Of a DNA stretch of 64,000 nt, positions 23,838 to 48,168 are shown piece after piece. The position numbers were made by a program, and so were the translations under genes. Below the pieces are notes generated by a model. The model was not told the origin of the DNA, did no database searches, and saw only the letters and a program-made list of their open reading frames with translations. This DNA comes from Adhaeribacter arboris (lineage in GTDB: Bacteria > Bacteroidota > Bacteroidia > Cytophagales > Hymenobacteraceae). The first letter of the stretch is position 1. Each line of letters begins with the position of its first letter. Location: positions 1-64,000 of the forward strand of contig NZ_PYFT01000001.1 in assembly GCF_003023845.1 (NCBI RefSeq), read 5' to 3'.

Positions 23838-25164
23838 TTATTCAAGCGGTATTTTATCAATTTCAGCCATAAGGCGGGCCGTTTCGGTGAGGGCGACGAT
23901 TATTTTTTGGTAATGCAGAATGTCGTCGAAGTCGAGTGGCCGGTCTTTGCGGTCTTTGAGCCATTTTTGGGCGGGTTGGTAGCCGCCAATGTAAAAGTTC
24001 CAGGCAATTTCGGGCACATCGGAAAAGTACTGGGTTTCGTTGAGGTACACGTGGCCGTTTTGGTATTTTACTTTGCCCACTACGTTGCTGCCATCTACGG
24101 GGTATTGGGTGAGGTAATTTTCGACCGCGGGGCTTTCGAGTAAGTGGATTTGCCGGAGTTCACCGCCCAGTTGCACCAGTTGCCAGAATAGCTCCGGGTT
24201 TTTGGGATAAGGCACGCGCGGAAAGTCAATTTTTAAAATTCTTTGTATTTCTCGCGGTAAGTGGGGCTGTGCAGCACGGCGTAAATATAATCCAGTAAAT
24301 CAATGGGGGCGAAGACCTCGACCTCCCCCGACCCCTCCGAAGGAGGGGAGCTATGGTGCAAAGCCTCTTCTCCGGAGGGGTTGGGGAAATCTTTATGATC
24401 AAGATGTGCTGTTATTTGTGAAGCCACTGCTGCCGGATTGTAGAATACTTCGGCGTTCGTGAAACGGATAACTTCGTAACCTAATTCATGTAATCGCTGC
24501 GTTCTTAAAGCATCGTATTCTTTTTGGTGCAAATGAATTTTTCCATCAATTTCGATCACTACTTTTTTCGTAAACAAACAAAGTCCATGATAAAATCATC
24601 AATAATATGTTGTCTTCTGATTTTATAGCCGGTTTTTTTATTACGTAAATACTCCCATATTACTTTTTCCGCTTCGGTAGGGTTGTCTTTTAAAGCATCC
24701 CGCATTTCTTTAATGAGCTTATAGGTTAACGGATTTGCGGTAATATATCCGGCCTCTCCCAGCCCCACCGAAGGAGGGGAGTTCGGGTTTTTCATTTCAT
24801 TGGTAATCTTGCCAAGCCTTCCCGAAAGCGATGCTTCTTCTAAAAGCCCCTCCTTTGGAGGGGTTGGGGAGGTCTTTTCGGGCGTAAAGGTTAAACTTAA
24901 ATTATCGGCAATTTGCTGGACGATGGTTGGGTTTAAGTTGGGCGTTCTAGCCGCGGTTTGCTCGATGCTTTGCTGGCCGTTATTTTCGGGGTACAGGTAG
25001 AGGGGTGCTGTATAGCCAAACGAAAAAGCTGTTCCTAAAAAGTGGCATTCAACTAGACTTTTTGAAATAACTAAAATATTCGAAATAAAAATATTGGTAA
25101 AATCACTAATTGTAGCACTTCTCTCAAATTTCAAAGCAGAATTTTGTTTTAGAAGATGGCGCAT
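23838..25164 (-). pseudogene. C-terminal remnant of a type ISP restriction-modification enzyme with inserted DUF559 domain
   Basis: Three overlapping or adjacent minus-strand frames (25164-24559, 24577-24233, 24215-23838) form one gene of 442 aa once two single-base gaps are restored: one A in the A-run at 24563-24568 and one T in the T-run at 24235-24238. The outer parts match the C-terminal specificity region of type ISP enzymes: PLYLYPE, NPTIVQQIADNLSLTFTPEK, then APIDLLDYIYAVLHSPTYRE, and the end motif WNFYIGGYQPAQKWLKDRK with FDDILHYQKIIVAL. The insertion between TFTPEK and APIDLL is a DUF559 endonuclease unit. The N-terminal helicase, nuclease and methylase domains are absent; an N-terminal stub lies at 26299-26454. 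Activity as a restriction enzyme is very unlikely. Confidence 0.85.
24320..24874 (-). mobile_element. DUF559 endonuclease unit flanked by composite palindromes
   Basis: This 555-bp unit starts (minus strand, 24874) with GACCTCCCCAACCCCTCC and ends (24320) with a near-perfect inverted copy. Each flank is itself a double palindrome: CCCCTCC-xxx-GGAGGGG near 24848-24864 and 24760-24779 on one side, and near 24367-24380 and 24332-24349 on the other. Between them lies a DUF559 (Vsr-like) endonuclease domain: NPTEAEKVIWEYLRN, IRRQHIIDDFIMDF, VVIEIDGKIHLHQKEYD and LGYEVIRFTNAEV. The palindromes are translated in frame as SPTPPKEGLLE, NSPPSVGLGEA and SSPPSEGSGEVEVF. The host enzyme reads through on both sides. 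The DUF559 frame carries one single-base homopolymer shift. Mobility is inferred from the inverted ends and clean domain insertion. Confidence 0.7.
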
Positions 25165-25219: not shown

Positions 25220-26185
25220 CTACTTAATCCAGGCCTCTATTTTGTCTACCAGCATTCTCTCTAGGTCTTCTGGAGTATTATAAATAATATGCTGCAATTG
25301 CTTTATGTCGAAATGGGAATCACTAAAATCATCTTTATGGCAGGTGTAAATTACAGACTTACCTAATCCTAAGGCATATCCACTTTCAAAGTACACCCCA
25401 TTTCTATGAAGCGTAAAATCAGCAACACAAAACTTTGATTGTTTTATACCTGAAAGAATTGCATCTGGAATAGTTTTATCACTGTTTATGTGTTCTTCAT
25501 CAATAATAATCACTTTGTATCCTGTTTTTGAAATTGCATTCTTGATCGCTTTTCTATATGGTTTGGTTCTATTATCAAAAGCCATAAAGCAGGTTTTTGA
25601 ATTAATTTCTACTTTACTTAATTCTACAACCTGGTTTAATCCTTTATGTATTATTTGGAAATATCCAGAATAATCTGAATCATGTATTTGAGGTTGTGGC
25701 TTAAAGTTTATAAAATCGCTTTCCTCTAATCCTTTTAAATAAAACAAGAACTCACTCGGACTAGAAAAATAGTTTTTTAGAAAAATCCAAGGTTTATTGT
25801 AATCCAAAAATACTTGTTCACCATCTACCTTCTGTAATGAGAATAAAAACAGAAGAAGAGAATTCAACCGCTCAGCAGGTGTTTTAGGGTAATTTGTGCT
25901 TTCCAGATATTGATTCAGTAGTATTCTTTCGCTATTTGCAGGATCTTAATTTACCTCATTGTCAATATGATCTTCAGCAATAATAAAAGCTCTTTCCGGC
26001 CAAATACCATTGGCTATTAACCCTTTAACTATATGCATAGGAGCATCCTTTATTTTATATTGGCAATCATGGCAAATGAAAATTGTTATTTTCCTTTCTA
26101 AAATGTTCAAATCATATGAATAACAATCTCTATGGCTTGTTACCTCTATATCTTCACCCGTTAAAACACATATTTCTTTTTGCAT
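25220..26185 (-). pseudogene. Nucleoside 2-deoxyribosyltransferase-like protein, interrupted by an in-frame stop
   Basis: Two minus-strand frames (26185-25946 and 25867-25220) lie in the same reading frame, separated only by a TAA at 25946-25948. Downstream codons read on without further stops (DPANSERILLNQYLEST...). Read through, the protein is 321 aa. The N-terminal part has paired cysteines (ICVLTGEDIEV and ICHDCQYK) suggesting a metal-binding knuckle. The C-terminal domain (about 195-320) has the deoxyribosyltransferase/TIR-like fold pattern: CFMAFDNRT, YKVIIIDEEHIN, FCVADFTLHRNGVYFESGYALGLGKSVIYTCHKDD. Such domains occur in nucleotide-metabolising and defence proteins. It occupies the place where the middle of the type ISP gene should be and is AT-richer than its surroundings. 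The second part could be translated alone from TTG at 25867. Confidence 0.7.
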
Positions 26186-46099: not shown

Positions 46100-46987
46100 A
46101 TGAAAAATTTAAAAAGTTTTAAATACTTATTTTTAATTCTTGGTTTATTGTTTCAGGGTACGTTTTACGCTTGTGCCCAAACTAAAAGCAATACTAAAAA
46201 GCCTTTAATTGTCTTTGTAACCGGCGACCACGAGTATAGCGGCGAACTAACCATGCCGGCCATTGCCGCTGAGCTGGAAAAAAATTACGGGTTCCGGACC
46301 AAAGTTCTAAAAGCATTCCCCGATCAAAATTCCGAAGAAAACATTCCGGGCTTAGAAGCTTTACAAGACGCCGATGTAGCCGTATTTTTTTTACGCTGGC
46401 GCCGGTTGCCCGCTGATCAGCTCCGGCACATTGAGGATTATTTAAAAACCGGCAAACCGGTAATTGGCTTCCGGACGACTACCCATGCCTTTAACTACCC
46501 GGCCGGGCACGAGCTCGAAAAATGGAATGCATTTGGCGAAATGGCTTTTAACGCGCCGCCTGGTTGGGGCGGGGCAGCCAAGCATACCCATTATGGCCAC
46601 GAATCCAGTACCGATGTCAGCATTATTTCTAAAGAAGCTAAAAACCCTATTTTAACCGGGGTACAAGCTAATTTTCATGCTCGTTCCTGGTTGTACCGGG
46701 TATTGCCCGATTACCCCAAAAAAGGCTCTACTTGGCTGTTAATGGGGCACGCCGTCAACCCGGATAAAGAAGCCATTGATAATCCGGTAGCCTGGACCGG
46801 CACCAACTCCTTCGGAGGTAAATTTTTTATGACCACCTTAGGCCACCCCGAAGATTTCGATTTAGAACCAGTTCAGCGATTGGTAATTAACGGCATCCAC
46901 TGGGCGGCCGGAAAACCGGTGCCTAAAAAATGGGCGGGTAAAATAGAAATAAATGCGCCTTATCATGGTATACAAGCTAGTAAGTAA
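46100..46987 (+). CDS. ThuA domain-containing secreted protein
   Basis: This 295-aa protein has a signal sequence with a possible lipobox cysteine (FYACAQ, C25) and one ThuA domain. The domain is the glutamine-amidotransferase-like fold found in sugar-utilisation loci. Recognisable stretches include PLIVFVTGDHEYSGELTMP, ADVAVFFLRWRRLP, KTGKPVIGFRTTTHAF and GKFFMTTLGHPEDF. It differs from the 253-aa ThuA protein at 19.7 kb and seems a separate subfamily linked to PVC-type proteins. It starts 248 bp after the PVC-type cytochrome gene across an AT-rich gap with GTTGTT-type low-complexity sequence, and ends at a hairpin terminator. A role in oxidising or modifying the same sugar is likely from context. 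Confidence 0.88.
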   Translation: MKNLKSFKYLFLILGLLFQGTFYACAQTKSNTKKPLIVFVTGDHEYSGELTMPAIAAELEKNYGFRTKVLKAFPDQNSEENIPGLEALQDADVAVFFLRWRRLPADQLRHIEDYLKTGKPVIGFRTTTHAFNYPAGHELEKWNAFGEMAFNAPPGWGGAAKHTHYGHESSTDVSIISKEAKNPILTGVQANFHARSWLYRVLPDYPKKGSTWLLMGHAVNPDKEAIDNPVAWTGTNSFGGKFFMTTLGHPEDFDLEPVQRLVINGIHWAAGKPVPKKWAGKIEINAPYHGIQASK

Positions 46988-47081: not shown

Positions 47082-47151
47082 TGGAGCCGGTTTCCGTCTC
47101 CATGCTACTGTGCTGATGCGTTTTGAAAAGTAACCAGTTTGCCTCGTTGCC
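47082..47151 (-). repeat. Partial inverted copy of the ~200-bp structured repeat
   Basis: Read on the minus strand, this is the 3' third of the repeat family: CGAGGCAAACTGGTTAC, GCATCAGCAC and the terminal hairpin GGAGACGGAAACCGGCTCC. The 5' two thirds are missing. It points opposite to copy 2, about 410 bp away. Confidence 0.75.
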
Positions 47152-47559: not shown

Positions 47560-47763
47560 CAGTAGCAATTAACAACTGACACCAGTTTGGCGGTGGAGGG
47601 CCTTCTAAGGTTCTGGTGCCGAGGAATGAGGCATTGTGAGGAACGTACAAAAGAAACTTAGACCAGCCCGGAAAATCCAAACGAGGCCCGCCGGCTACGA
47701 GGCAAACTTGTAATTGGAAGTTGCATCAGCACCCGTAAATGTAGACGGAAACTGTCTCCACGG
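47560..47763 (+). repeat. Dispersed ~200-bp structured repeat, copy 2
   Basis: This copy starts with GCAGTAGCAATTAACAACTG and ends at the hairpin AGACGGAAACTGTCT. Shared blocks are ACACCAGTTTGGCGGTGG, GGGCCTTCTAAGG, GAGGCCCGCCGGCTACG and GCATCAGCACC. The central TTTAGCG/CGCTAAA stem is degenerate here, while the GGGCC/GGCCC stem is kept. It lies between the two convergent carbohydrate operons. Confidence 0.8.
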
Positions 47764-47832: not shown

Positions 47833-48168
47833 TTATAATTGAAATATCTTATCCATTAACGTCCATTTTTCACCTTCTTTTGCCCCAGGTACCGGTTTTT
47901 GGAACTGCCCTACAAATTTTTCCCAGTCTTGCACCAACTCATTAGCAGCATCTAGGGCGGCTTTGCGTTCGAAGCTGAAACTAGCATCAGTATCCATAAT
48001 CATAAACAGGCGGGTTCCGAGGCGATAAATTTCCATATTGGTAATACCGGCATCCCGGATGCTTTGCTTTATGCCGGGTCGGTCGTTGCCAGGTTTGTGC
48101 CAATGTTCGTACTCGGCAATCATGGCCGGGTCATCGTGCAGGTCCAGGGCTAAGCAGTATCTTTTCAA
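47833..48168 (-). CDS. rhaM: L-rhamnose mutarotase
   Basis: This 111-aa enzyme interconverts the alpha and beta anomers of L-rhamnose (and related 6-deoxy sugars) in the cytoplasm. It is a small dimeric alpha-beta barrel of normal length. Conserved features are the YCLALDLHDDPAMIAEYEHWHKP start with His residues, DAGITNMEIYRLGTRLFMIMD, and the final WEKFVGQFQKPVPGAKEGEKW. Related proteins include L-fucose mutarotase, but the HDDP and NMEIYR motifs favour the RhaM side. It follows the GH95 gene by 45 bp on the minus strand and is the last gene of that unit, just before the repeat-filled convergent gap. Confidence 0.88.
   Translation of the reverse strand: MKRYCLALDLHDDPAMIAEYEHWHKPGNDRPGIKQSIRDAGITNMEIYRLGTRLFMIMDTDASFSFERKAALDAANELVQDWEKFVGQFQKPVPGAKEGEKWTLMDKIFQL

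Follow-up and report, generated by a model that had tools for sequence, protein, structure and literature searches.

Among described bacterial repeats, those closest to the units reported here are the REPs and REPINs that accompany RAYT (TnpA_REP) genes in the REPtron. As set out in two accounts (PMC6006769, PMC3733652), these comprise tailed hairpins, inverted pairs and dispersed copies and, further, a repeat-flanked enzyme gene, a match between enzyme and repeat, and in-frame intragenic copies, features that are found in DUF559 units as well. REPs with RAYTs, including in-frame REPs within genes, have been described in Bacteroidetes (PMC6006769). Earlier work has also recorded REPs that lie in frame with no nuclease, and the CGTC REPs, given as a CGTC, TGTC or CCTC tag with an 8-9 bp stem in which AT pairs come first, are said to have no dedicated transposase (PMC3733652). 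Rickettsia palindromic elements (RPE) and intragenic GTAG/CGTC REPs likewise lie in frame in unrelated conserved proteins (PMC3733652, PMC10969869) and differ from DUF559 units in having no nuclease gene.

Two further systems are comparable from the side of the enzyme. Inteins resemble DUF559 inserts in that an endonuclease is translated within essential enzymes, and the EDxHD homing endonuclease I-Bth0305I, which belongs to a mobile intron according to its PDB label, matches DUF559 in profile and fold. One DUF559 gene has been assigned to the EDxHD homing family (PMC9403480) and a Caulobacter DUF559 protein has been tied to DNA damage (PMC12907096). Each of the two components has thus been described on its own, palindromes read in frame as RPE and intragenic REPs, and homing enzymes as the EDxHD family. 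What is new here is their combination, with enzyme and repeat matched to each other and with Y1 genes that have other repeats; neither this combination nor any link between DUF559 and hairpins was found in searches of an open-licence library of PMC papers.

The unit was found in a stretch of 64,000 nucleotides from Adhaeribacter arboris, hereafter the window. It occupies about 555 bases of the minus strand (24320..24874) between the peptides TFTPEK and FAPIDLL of a type ISP remnant (Table 1). An inverted pair of palindromes was present at precisely the ends given in the original prediction, and the double palindrome that had been described for each flank was recovered too, with degraded inner copies. 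On folding, the outer R1 and R4 hairpins kept 7-bp stems that are lost in the inner R2 and R3. R1 and R2 together have the shape of a mini-unit, and R3 and R4 that of a second one. When the 450-base flanks of the unit were compared in inverted sense, the match scored 20.0, whereas none of 200 dinucleotide shuffles exceeded 13.5; one of 202 other places in the window scored above it (24.5), an unrelated inverted repeat near 47082. No further occurrence of the window's exact hairpin was found in its own genome, which holds a second good DUF559 copy (L001) of another clade with inward tails and a weak DUF559 match (L004, E 3.7e-4).

Table 1. Features of the DUF559 unit and of the type ISP remnant around it (window positions)
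Feature	Position	Strand	Remarks
Outer palindrome R1 (5' end of unit)	24847..24874	-	GACCTCCCCAACCCCTCCAAAGGAGGGG; C-rich outward tail and 7-bp GC hairpin
Inner palindrome R2	24753..24781	-	Degraded; inverse to R1
DUF559 (PF04480), putative nuclease domain	24401..24708	-	Pfam; domain shared by two frames
Inner palindrome R3	24364..24391	-	Degraded
Outer palindrome R4 (3' end of unit)	24320..24350	-	CTCCCCTCCTTCGGAGGGGTCGGGGGAGGTC; hairpin and outward tail
Type ISP host remnant, N side of Type_ISP_C (profile 106-191)	24875..25164	-	Same frame as first half of DUF559
Type ISP host remnant past the unit, Type_ISP_C profile 182-212 and 221-341	23838..24319	-	Own frame change

The repeat near 47082 consists of two 38-nt arms (47082-47119 and 47723-47760) that are 76% complementary and 603 nt apart; it lies between the ORFs 46100-46987 and 47833-48168, in a stretch with no long ORF, and has no C-rich hairpin.

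Pfam placed DUF559 (PF04480) between the palindromes and Type_ISP_C (PF18135) on either side, the N-side match of 23.3 bits being slightly below the cut-off of 25.9. Since its Type_ISP_C match starts no earlier than profile position 106, the host is a 5'-truncated remnant. The whole unit had been predicted to be read in frame by its host gene; for the window copy this is not borne out, the truncated host and DUF559 being spread over three minus-strand ORFs in three different frames, namely 25164-24559 (host and first half of DUF559), 24577-24233 (second half of DUF559 and host) and 24215-23838 (host end). The frame changes fall at homopolymer runs, near 24563-24568 inside DUF559 and near 24235-24238 in the host past the unit, so that they may stem from faulty assembly; given the truncation of the host, true decay is equally likely. 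Immediately upstream of the host remnant lies another minus-strand ORF (25220-25867), which has weak matches, both below cut-off, to nucleoside deoxyribosyltransferase and to CAP12/Pycsar TIR domains. Together with the type ISP remnant, this ORF may once have belonged to a defence cluster.

The host had also been thought to resume at a domain boundary, which it does not; the unit lies inside Type_ISP_C, at a variable linker. Orthologs were searched for in 200 family genomes, of which 17 gave a match, and 13 loci of 11 genomes were read. The linker measures 7, 8 or 22 residues in these loci and all of them are without DUF559 (0/13), hence the domain in the window is an insertion and not an ancestral part of type ISP enzymes. 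Similarly, the insert at the MetH mid site is absent from 13 of 16 MetH genes in the 16 genomes of one genus. The exact edges proposed for comparison with uninterrupted orthologs could not be drawn at base level because the flanks were too diverged, and by eye neither a clean target duplication nor a base-exact empty site was found at MetH, type ISP, or the 3' ends of rimO and metH. For each of the last two, 50 genomes were searched and 30 loci read; in one rimO row (L178) a contig end cuts the locus and the script's reading of the row is wrong.

Palindromes were then sought at other DUF559 genes, as the original prediction had proposed. The relatives' set consisted of 81 loci, namely L001 and 80 of the best 150 DUF559 matches listed among 197 relatives; 40 of the fetched loci had long open frames and 40 were others. 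An inverted flank pair was called where the left flank scored at least 15 against the reverse complement of the right flank. Such pairs were found at 74 of the 81 loci, as compared with 1 of 80 for stretches further out, and seven loci were without a scoring pair. In direct sense the same flanks reached a score of at least 15 in 36/81, which the self-complementarity of each hairpin leads one to expect, and the distant control was used instead. A further 80 named loci, retrieved with one peptide pattern and overlapping the relatives' set, came from Bacteroidota, Chloroflexota, Armatimonadota, SAR324, Acidobacteriota and Pseudomonadota; 77 of them were scored for pairs and 70 for hairpins. An inverted pair was present at 62/77 (control 0/55) and missing at 15/77, including the methylase inserts L253 and L258 of Armatimonadota.

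The second measure was a hairpin with a stem of at least 7 bp and a C-rich 5' arm, lying no more than 500 bases from DUF559. It was found at 72/80 loci of relatives, 66/70 named loci and 11/11 plasmid-collection loci, against 4/80, 2/63 and 1/11 in the respective distant controls; hairpins of the opposite sense, with a G-rich 5' arm, numbered 1/80, 4/70 and 0/11. DUF559 flanks from Alpha-, Beta- and Gammaproteobacteria, Deinococcus and a cyanobacterium had C-rich hairpins at 11 of 11 loci read. No palindromes were found at the inserts L253 and L258, nor on the readable side of L259. In L253 and L258, DUF559 lies within the frame of an MmeI/Eco57I-like methylase and is followed by a His/Pro/Gln-rich repetitive stretch.

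Host genes were read in 40 loci with open frames of more than 280 residues; 15 of the 40 proteins were scanned against family libraries and the other hosts were assigned by alignment. Further sequence stood on both sides of DUF559 in one frame at 21 loci, the hosts being MetH (five at a mid site, one at an N site), LeuRS (six, at two sites), IleRS (two), a RecB-like helicase (six, with matches below NCBIfam cut-offs) and a PD-(D/E)XK-domain protein (one). End fusions accounted for 16, before RecQ (four), after MetH (two) or after PurQ (ten), where the names IleRS and PurQ are our reading of the Pfam domains tRNA-synt_1 with DUF5915 and GATase_5. Two loci had no recognised host, and in a MetH insert from the window's genus (L041) the frame was lost directly behind the unit. 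An inverted flank pair scoring at least 15 accompanied 17 of the 21 internal inserts. Among the named loci, further hosts were MutS, HemD, a GAF-domain protein, methylmalonyl-CoA mutase, AAA helicases and a DBI_PRT phosphoribosyltransferase.

The suggestion that the palindromes double as translated peptide linkers is supported by these relatives, in whose in-frame inserts their translation yields linkers rich in Pro, Gly and Ser (for example PHPPAPSP...RGS and GSPLS.GEGGRGGE). The LeuRS with the insert is the sole LeuRS above the family cut-off in 6/6 genomes, so the enzyme presumably works with its insert. At the MetH and LeuRS sites, other genomes hold palindromic inserts without DUF559 (by eye). 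The scanned fusions contained no splicing domain at E <= 0.001 (9, 10 and 6 proteins with Pfam, 7 with NCBIfam), a difference from inteins, and the DUF559 insert would be expected to stay in the protein. Of the two likenesses first proposed, that to REP/RAYT, with a Vsr-type nuclease travelling with palindromes, is supported, whereas that to inteins fails as far as splicing is meant. Neither of the two outcomes named beforehand as refuting the prediction was obtained, since DUF559 genes elsewhere do have such palindromes and the type ISP orthologs read are free of the domain.

A tree of 118 DUF559 domains was built from 108 columns, with long-frame loci oversampled and many forks unresolved. 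It placed the window domain in a supported set of 24 rows (100/84) together with LeuRS, IleRS and MetH inserts. Of these rows, 22 lie in host genes (LeuRS 8, MetH 7, IleRS 3, and one each in MutS, methylmalonyl-CoA mutase, a GAF-domain protein and the window's ISP gene) and the remaining two, L080 and L233, have their own short frames; the window copy and L041 are the two of the 22 that are out of frame as assembled. Type ISP enzymes with DUF559 also occur in Chloroflexota, L259 having it at the same linker as the window, and form a separate supported set (99/91). The starred branches of the tree force at least two changes of the ISP label, so that the type ISP family seems to have been entered by DUF559 at least twice.

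The palindromes are dispersed through genomes that carry DUF559. The stem CCCCTC-N(2-16)-GAGGGG had a median of 59 in 107 genomes of the family with DUF559 versus 9 in 13 without (p 2.9e-6), and of 7.5 in 30 versus 1 in 47 in the rest of the order (p 4e-8), both comparisons (120 and 77 genomes) ignoring phylogeny. A loop-specific hairpin was confined to 20/118 genomes. In one genome (G026) it marks four mini-units with hairpins 108-117 bases apart, as well as one DUF559 unit with hairpins 454 apart in the same orientation as in the mini-units; the interiors of the mini-units look unrelated by eye and one of them is without one tail. In one genus, 13/30 loci read at the 3' end of metH had a palindrome of either of two types, or both, directly behind the stop codon (by eye). 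The interiors of 6 of 11 metH mini-units could be cut out, making 15 pairs, and two of the 15 matched when inverted (scores of 70 and 51.5 versus shuffled maxima of 13.5 and 11), suggesting that units had entered one site separately. At the same site in another locus (L296 of genome G018), a type-A mini-unit adjoins what is left of a type-C one, as though one had been inserted into the other.

Distances between domains and distances between palindromes were correlated over the 69 loci with a flank score of at least 18 (r 0.71, Mantel p 0.001, phylogeny being ignored). When domains were permuted within genomes, none of 999 trials reached the observed r (maximum 0.676). A single locus per site (33 sites, 50 draws) gave an r of 0.52-0.61 (about 0.58) with p <=0.005, again ignoring phylogeny. 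Judged by these distances, palindrome type goes with nuclease clade. At the rimO 3' end, two DUF559 clades occur among congeners, each with its own palindrome type.

A profile of 25 DUF559 domains matched 3hrl (E 5.7e-34) and 3r3p, a 'mobile intron protein' (E 4.9e-6). The AlphaFold model (pLDDT 84), compared with known structures by Foldseek, matched 3hrl and also 3r3p (E 3.4e-4, TM 0.66/0.71), the title of which names the catalytic domain of homing endonuclease I-Bth0305I; the match to Vsr was weaker (E 0.09). Five invariant acidic/His positions were intact in 69/69 domains, 31 of them in-frame or fused and 38 stand-alone. The best reading of these profile and model matches is that DUF559 is a nuclease of Vsr/EDxHD type, which would cleave DNA. 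DUF559 units differ from I-Bth0305I in having palindrome-marked ends and, in the scanned proteins, no self-splicing part.

Considering the anatomy of the units, their association with palindromes, type matching, dispersal, insertion, open frames and recurrence at shared sites, as they can be read from sequence, we give a probability of roughly 0.6 to the reading that the unit in the window is a decayed member of a presumably mobile REP-like system, in which a Vsr/EDxHD-type nuclease is matched to its hairpins. Several observations weigh against it, namely the loci without a scoring pair and the inserts without palindromes, the failure to find a target duplication or a base-exact empty site, the lack of the window's exact hairpin elsewhere in its genome, the other clade and inward tails of L001, the dissimilar interiors of the G026 mini-units, and the larger palindrome number that goes with strong Y1 hits. 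The wider proposal, on which we would lay even odds, is of a second, RAYT-independent REP system in several phyla, driven by a nuclease of this type co-adapted with its own hairpins; some lineages would be unspliced, translated parasites of essential enzymes, with palindromes serving both as DNA ends and as protein linkers. The putative nuclease gene is bracketed by two palindromes; each consists of a short GC hairpin and a C-rich tail, in most cases directed outward. DUF559 may recognise its own palindromes, by hairpin or tail, and cut or nick at the palindrome end or at the target, after which host repair or recombination would copy the unit or a mini-unit. Many copies, and mini-units free of the nuclease, lie in intergenic stretches or immediately after stop codons, and in several lineages the unit is in frame within genes, at variable linkers; inserts would survive at such places because they are tolerated there. 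Within genes the palindromes are read as linkers rich in Pro, Gly and Ser, and the nuclease adds a domain to a host enzyme that presumably remains active. The window copy would have entered the linker of a type ISP gene, unit and host losing the frame later.

If true, a small unassigned nuclease family matched to its own hairpins becomes a candidate mobiliser for one class of repeats. The in-frame lineages would mean that a selfish nuclease can reside, with no splicing involved, in enzymes that the cell cannot do without, and would account for the Pro/Gly-rich insertions and the DUF559 domains of MetH, LeuRS, IleRS, PurQ and RecB-like proteins.

DUF559 might instead be a strict homing endonuclease that spreads by gene conversion into the few sites where it cuts uninterrupted alleles, with the palindromes as a secondary feature. 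Its similarity to I-Bth0305I and its recurrent sites in MetH, LeuRS, PurQ and RecB-like genes speak for this, and a single change on the tree suffices for the RecB and helicase groups. Elsewhere, however, several changes are needed (four for LeuRS site 1, with 4 rows, three for PurQ and three for MetH mid, of which the starred branches force fewer), the hosts are unrelated, palindromes are dispersed and mini-units lack the nuclease, so we hold it to be quite unlikely. It is very improbable that DUF559 is simply a useful extra nuclease domain retained by host enzymes, some of them acting on DNA. Hosts such as RecB-like proteins, RecQ, MutS, type ISP enzymes and helicases do handle DNA and the five conserved positions are intact, but MetH, LeuRS, IleRS, PurQ, HemD and methylmalonyl-CoA mutase are not DNA-handling, presence is patchy even within the single genus read for MetH, and the same sites are held by palindromic inserts without the domain. 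Chance proximity of frequent GC-rich hairpins, in genomes with up to 266 copies of the stem, is scarcely conceivable; it is contradicted by the distant controls, the dinucleotide shuffles and reversed-pattern controls made per genome, and opposite-sense hairpins are rare.

The palindromes could also be REPs moved by a RAYT (Y1) or by an unknown enzyme, with DUF559 as cargo or bystander, a view for which the REPs, RAYTs and in-frame REPs reported from Bacteroidetes speak (PMC6006769) and with which the occurrence of mini-units without DUF559 agrees. Y1_Tnp matches were taken from 197 genomes and 50 loci of relatives were read. Inverted flank pairs were present at 27/50, but their sequence was other than that of the DUF559 repeats; the CCCCTC-GAGGGG stem occurred within the fetched 1.5 kb of Y1 at only 1/50 loci and in none of the 27 flank pairs. 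Two REP-like systems thus seem to exist side by side in these genomes. Palindromes had a median of 41 in the 19 genomes with DUF559 and no Y1 match, against 9 in the 11 with Y1 and no DUF559. Within DUF559-bearing genomes, the presence of any Y1 match made no clear difference to palindrome number (p 0.22), and strong Y1 hits went with more palindromes (median 99 in 27 genomes versus 52 in 80, p 0.016), a point in favour of a RAYT. With palindrome number following DUF559 more than Y1, and palindrome type tracking the DUF559 clade, a RAYT as mover is unlikely. Since the Y1 enzyme that defines RAYT systems was looked for and is not the enzyme here, DUF559 units are placed beside REP/RAYT by their way of working and not by membership. 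They differ from it in that the enzyme is of the PD-(D/E)XK/Vsr type and not a Y1 HuH transposase, that the nuclease gene itself rides in frame, and that, by reading, the hairpin foot has no GTAG-type tag and the tails are C-rich, for example CCTCACCCCC and GACCTCCCC.

We do not claim DUF559 as the missing partner of the CGTC repeats. At 11/11 DUF559 loci read, the C-rich stems are without the form in which the CGTC repeats have been described. Among the Y1_Tnp loci, those of Hymenobacter and relatives (L356-L371) have different inverted repeats of their own, for example AGCCCCAGCGGGGCGACATATCGGTAG.
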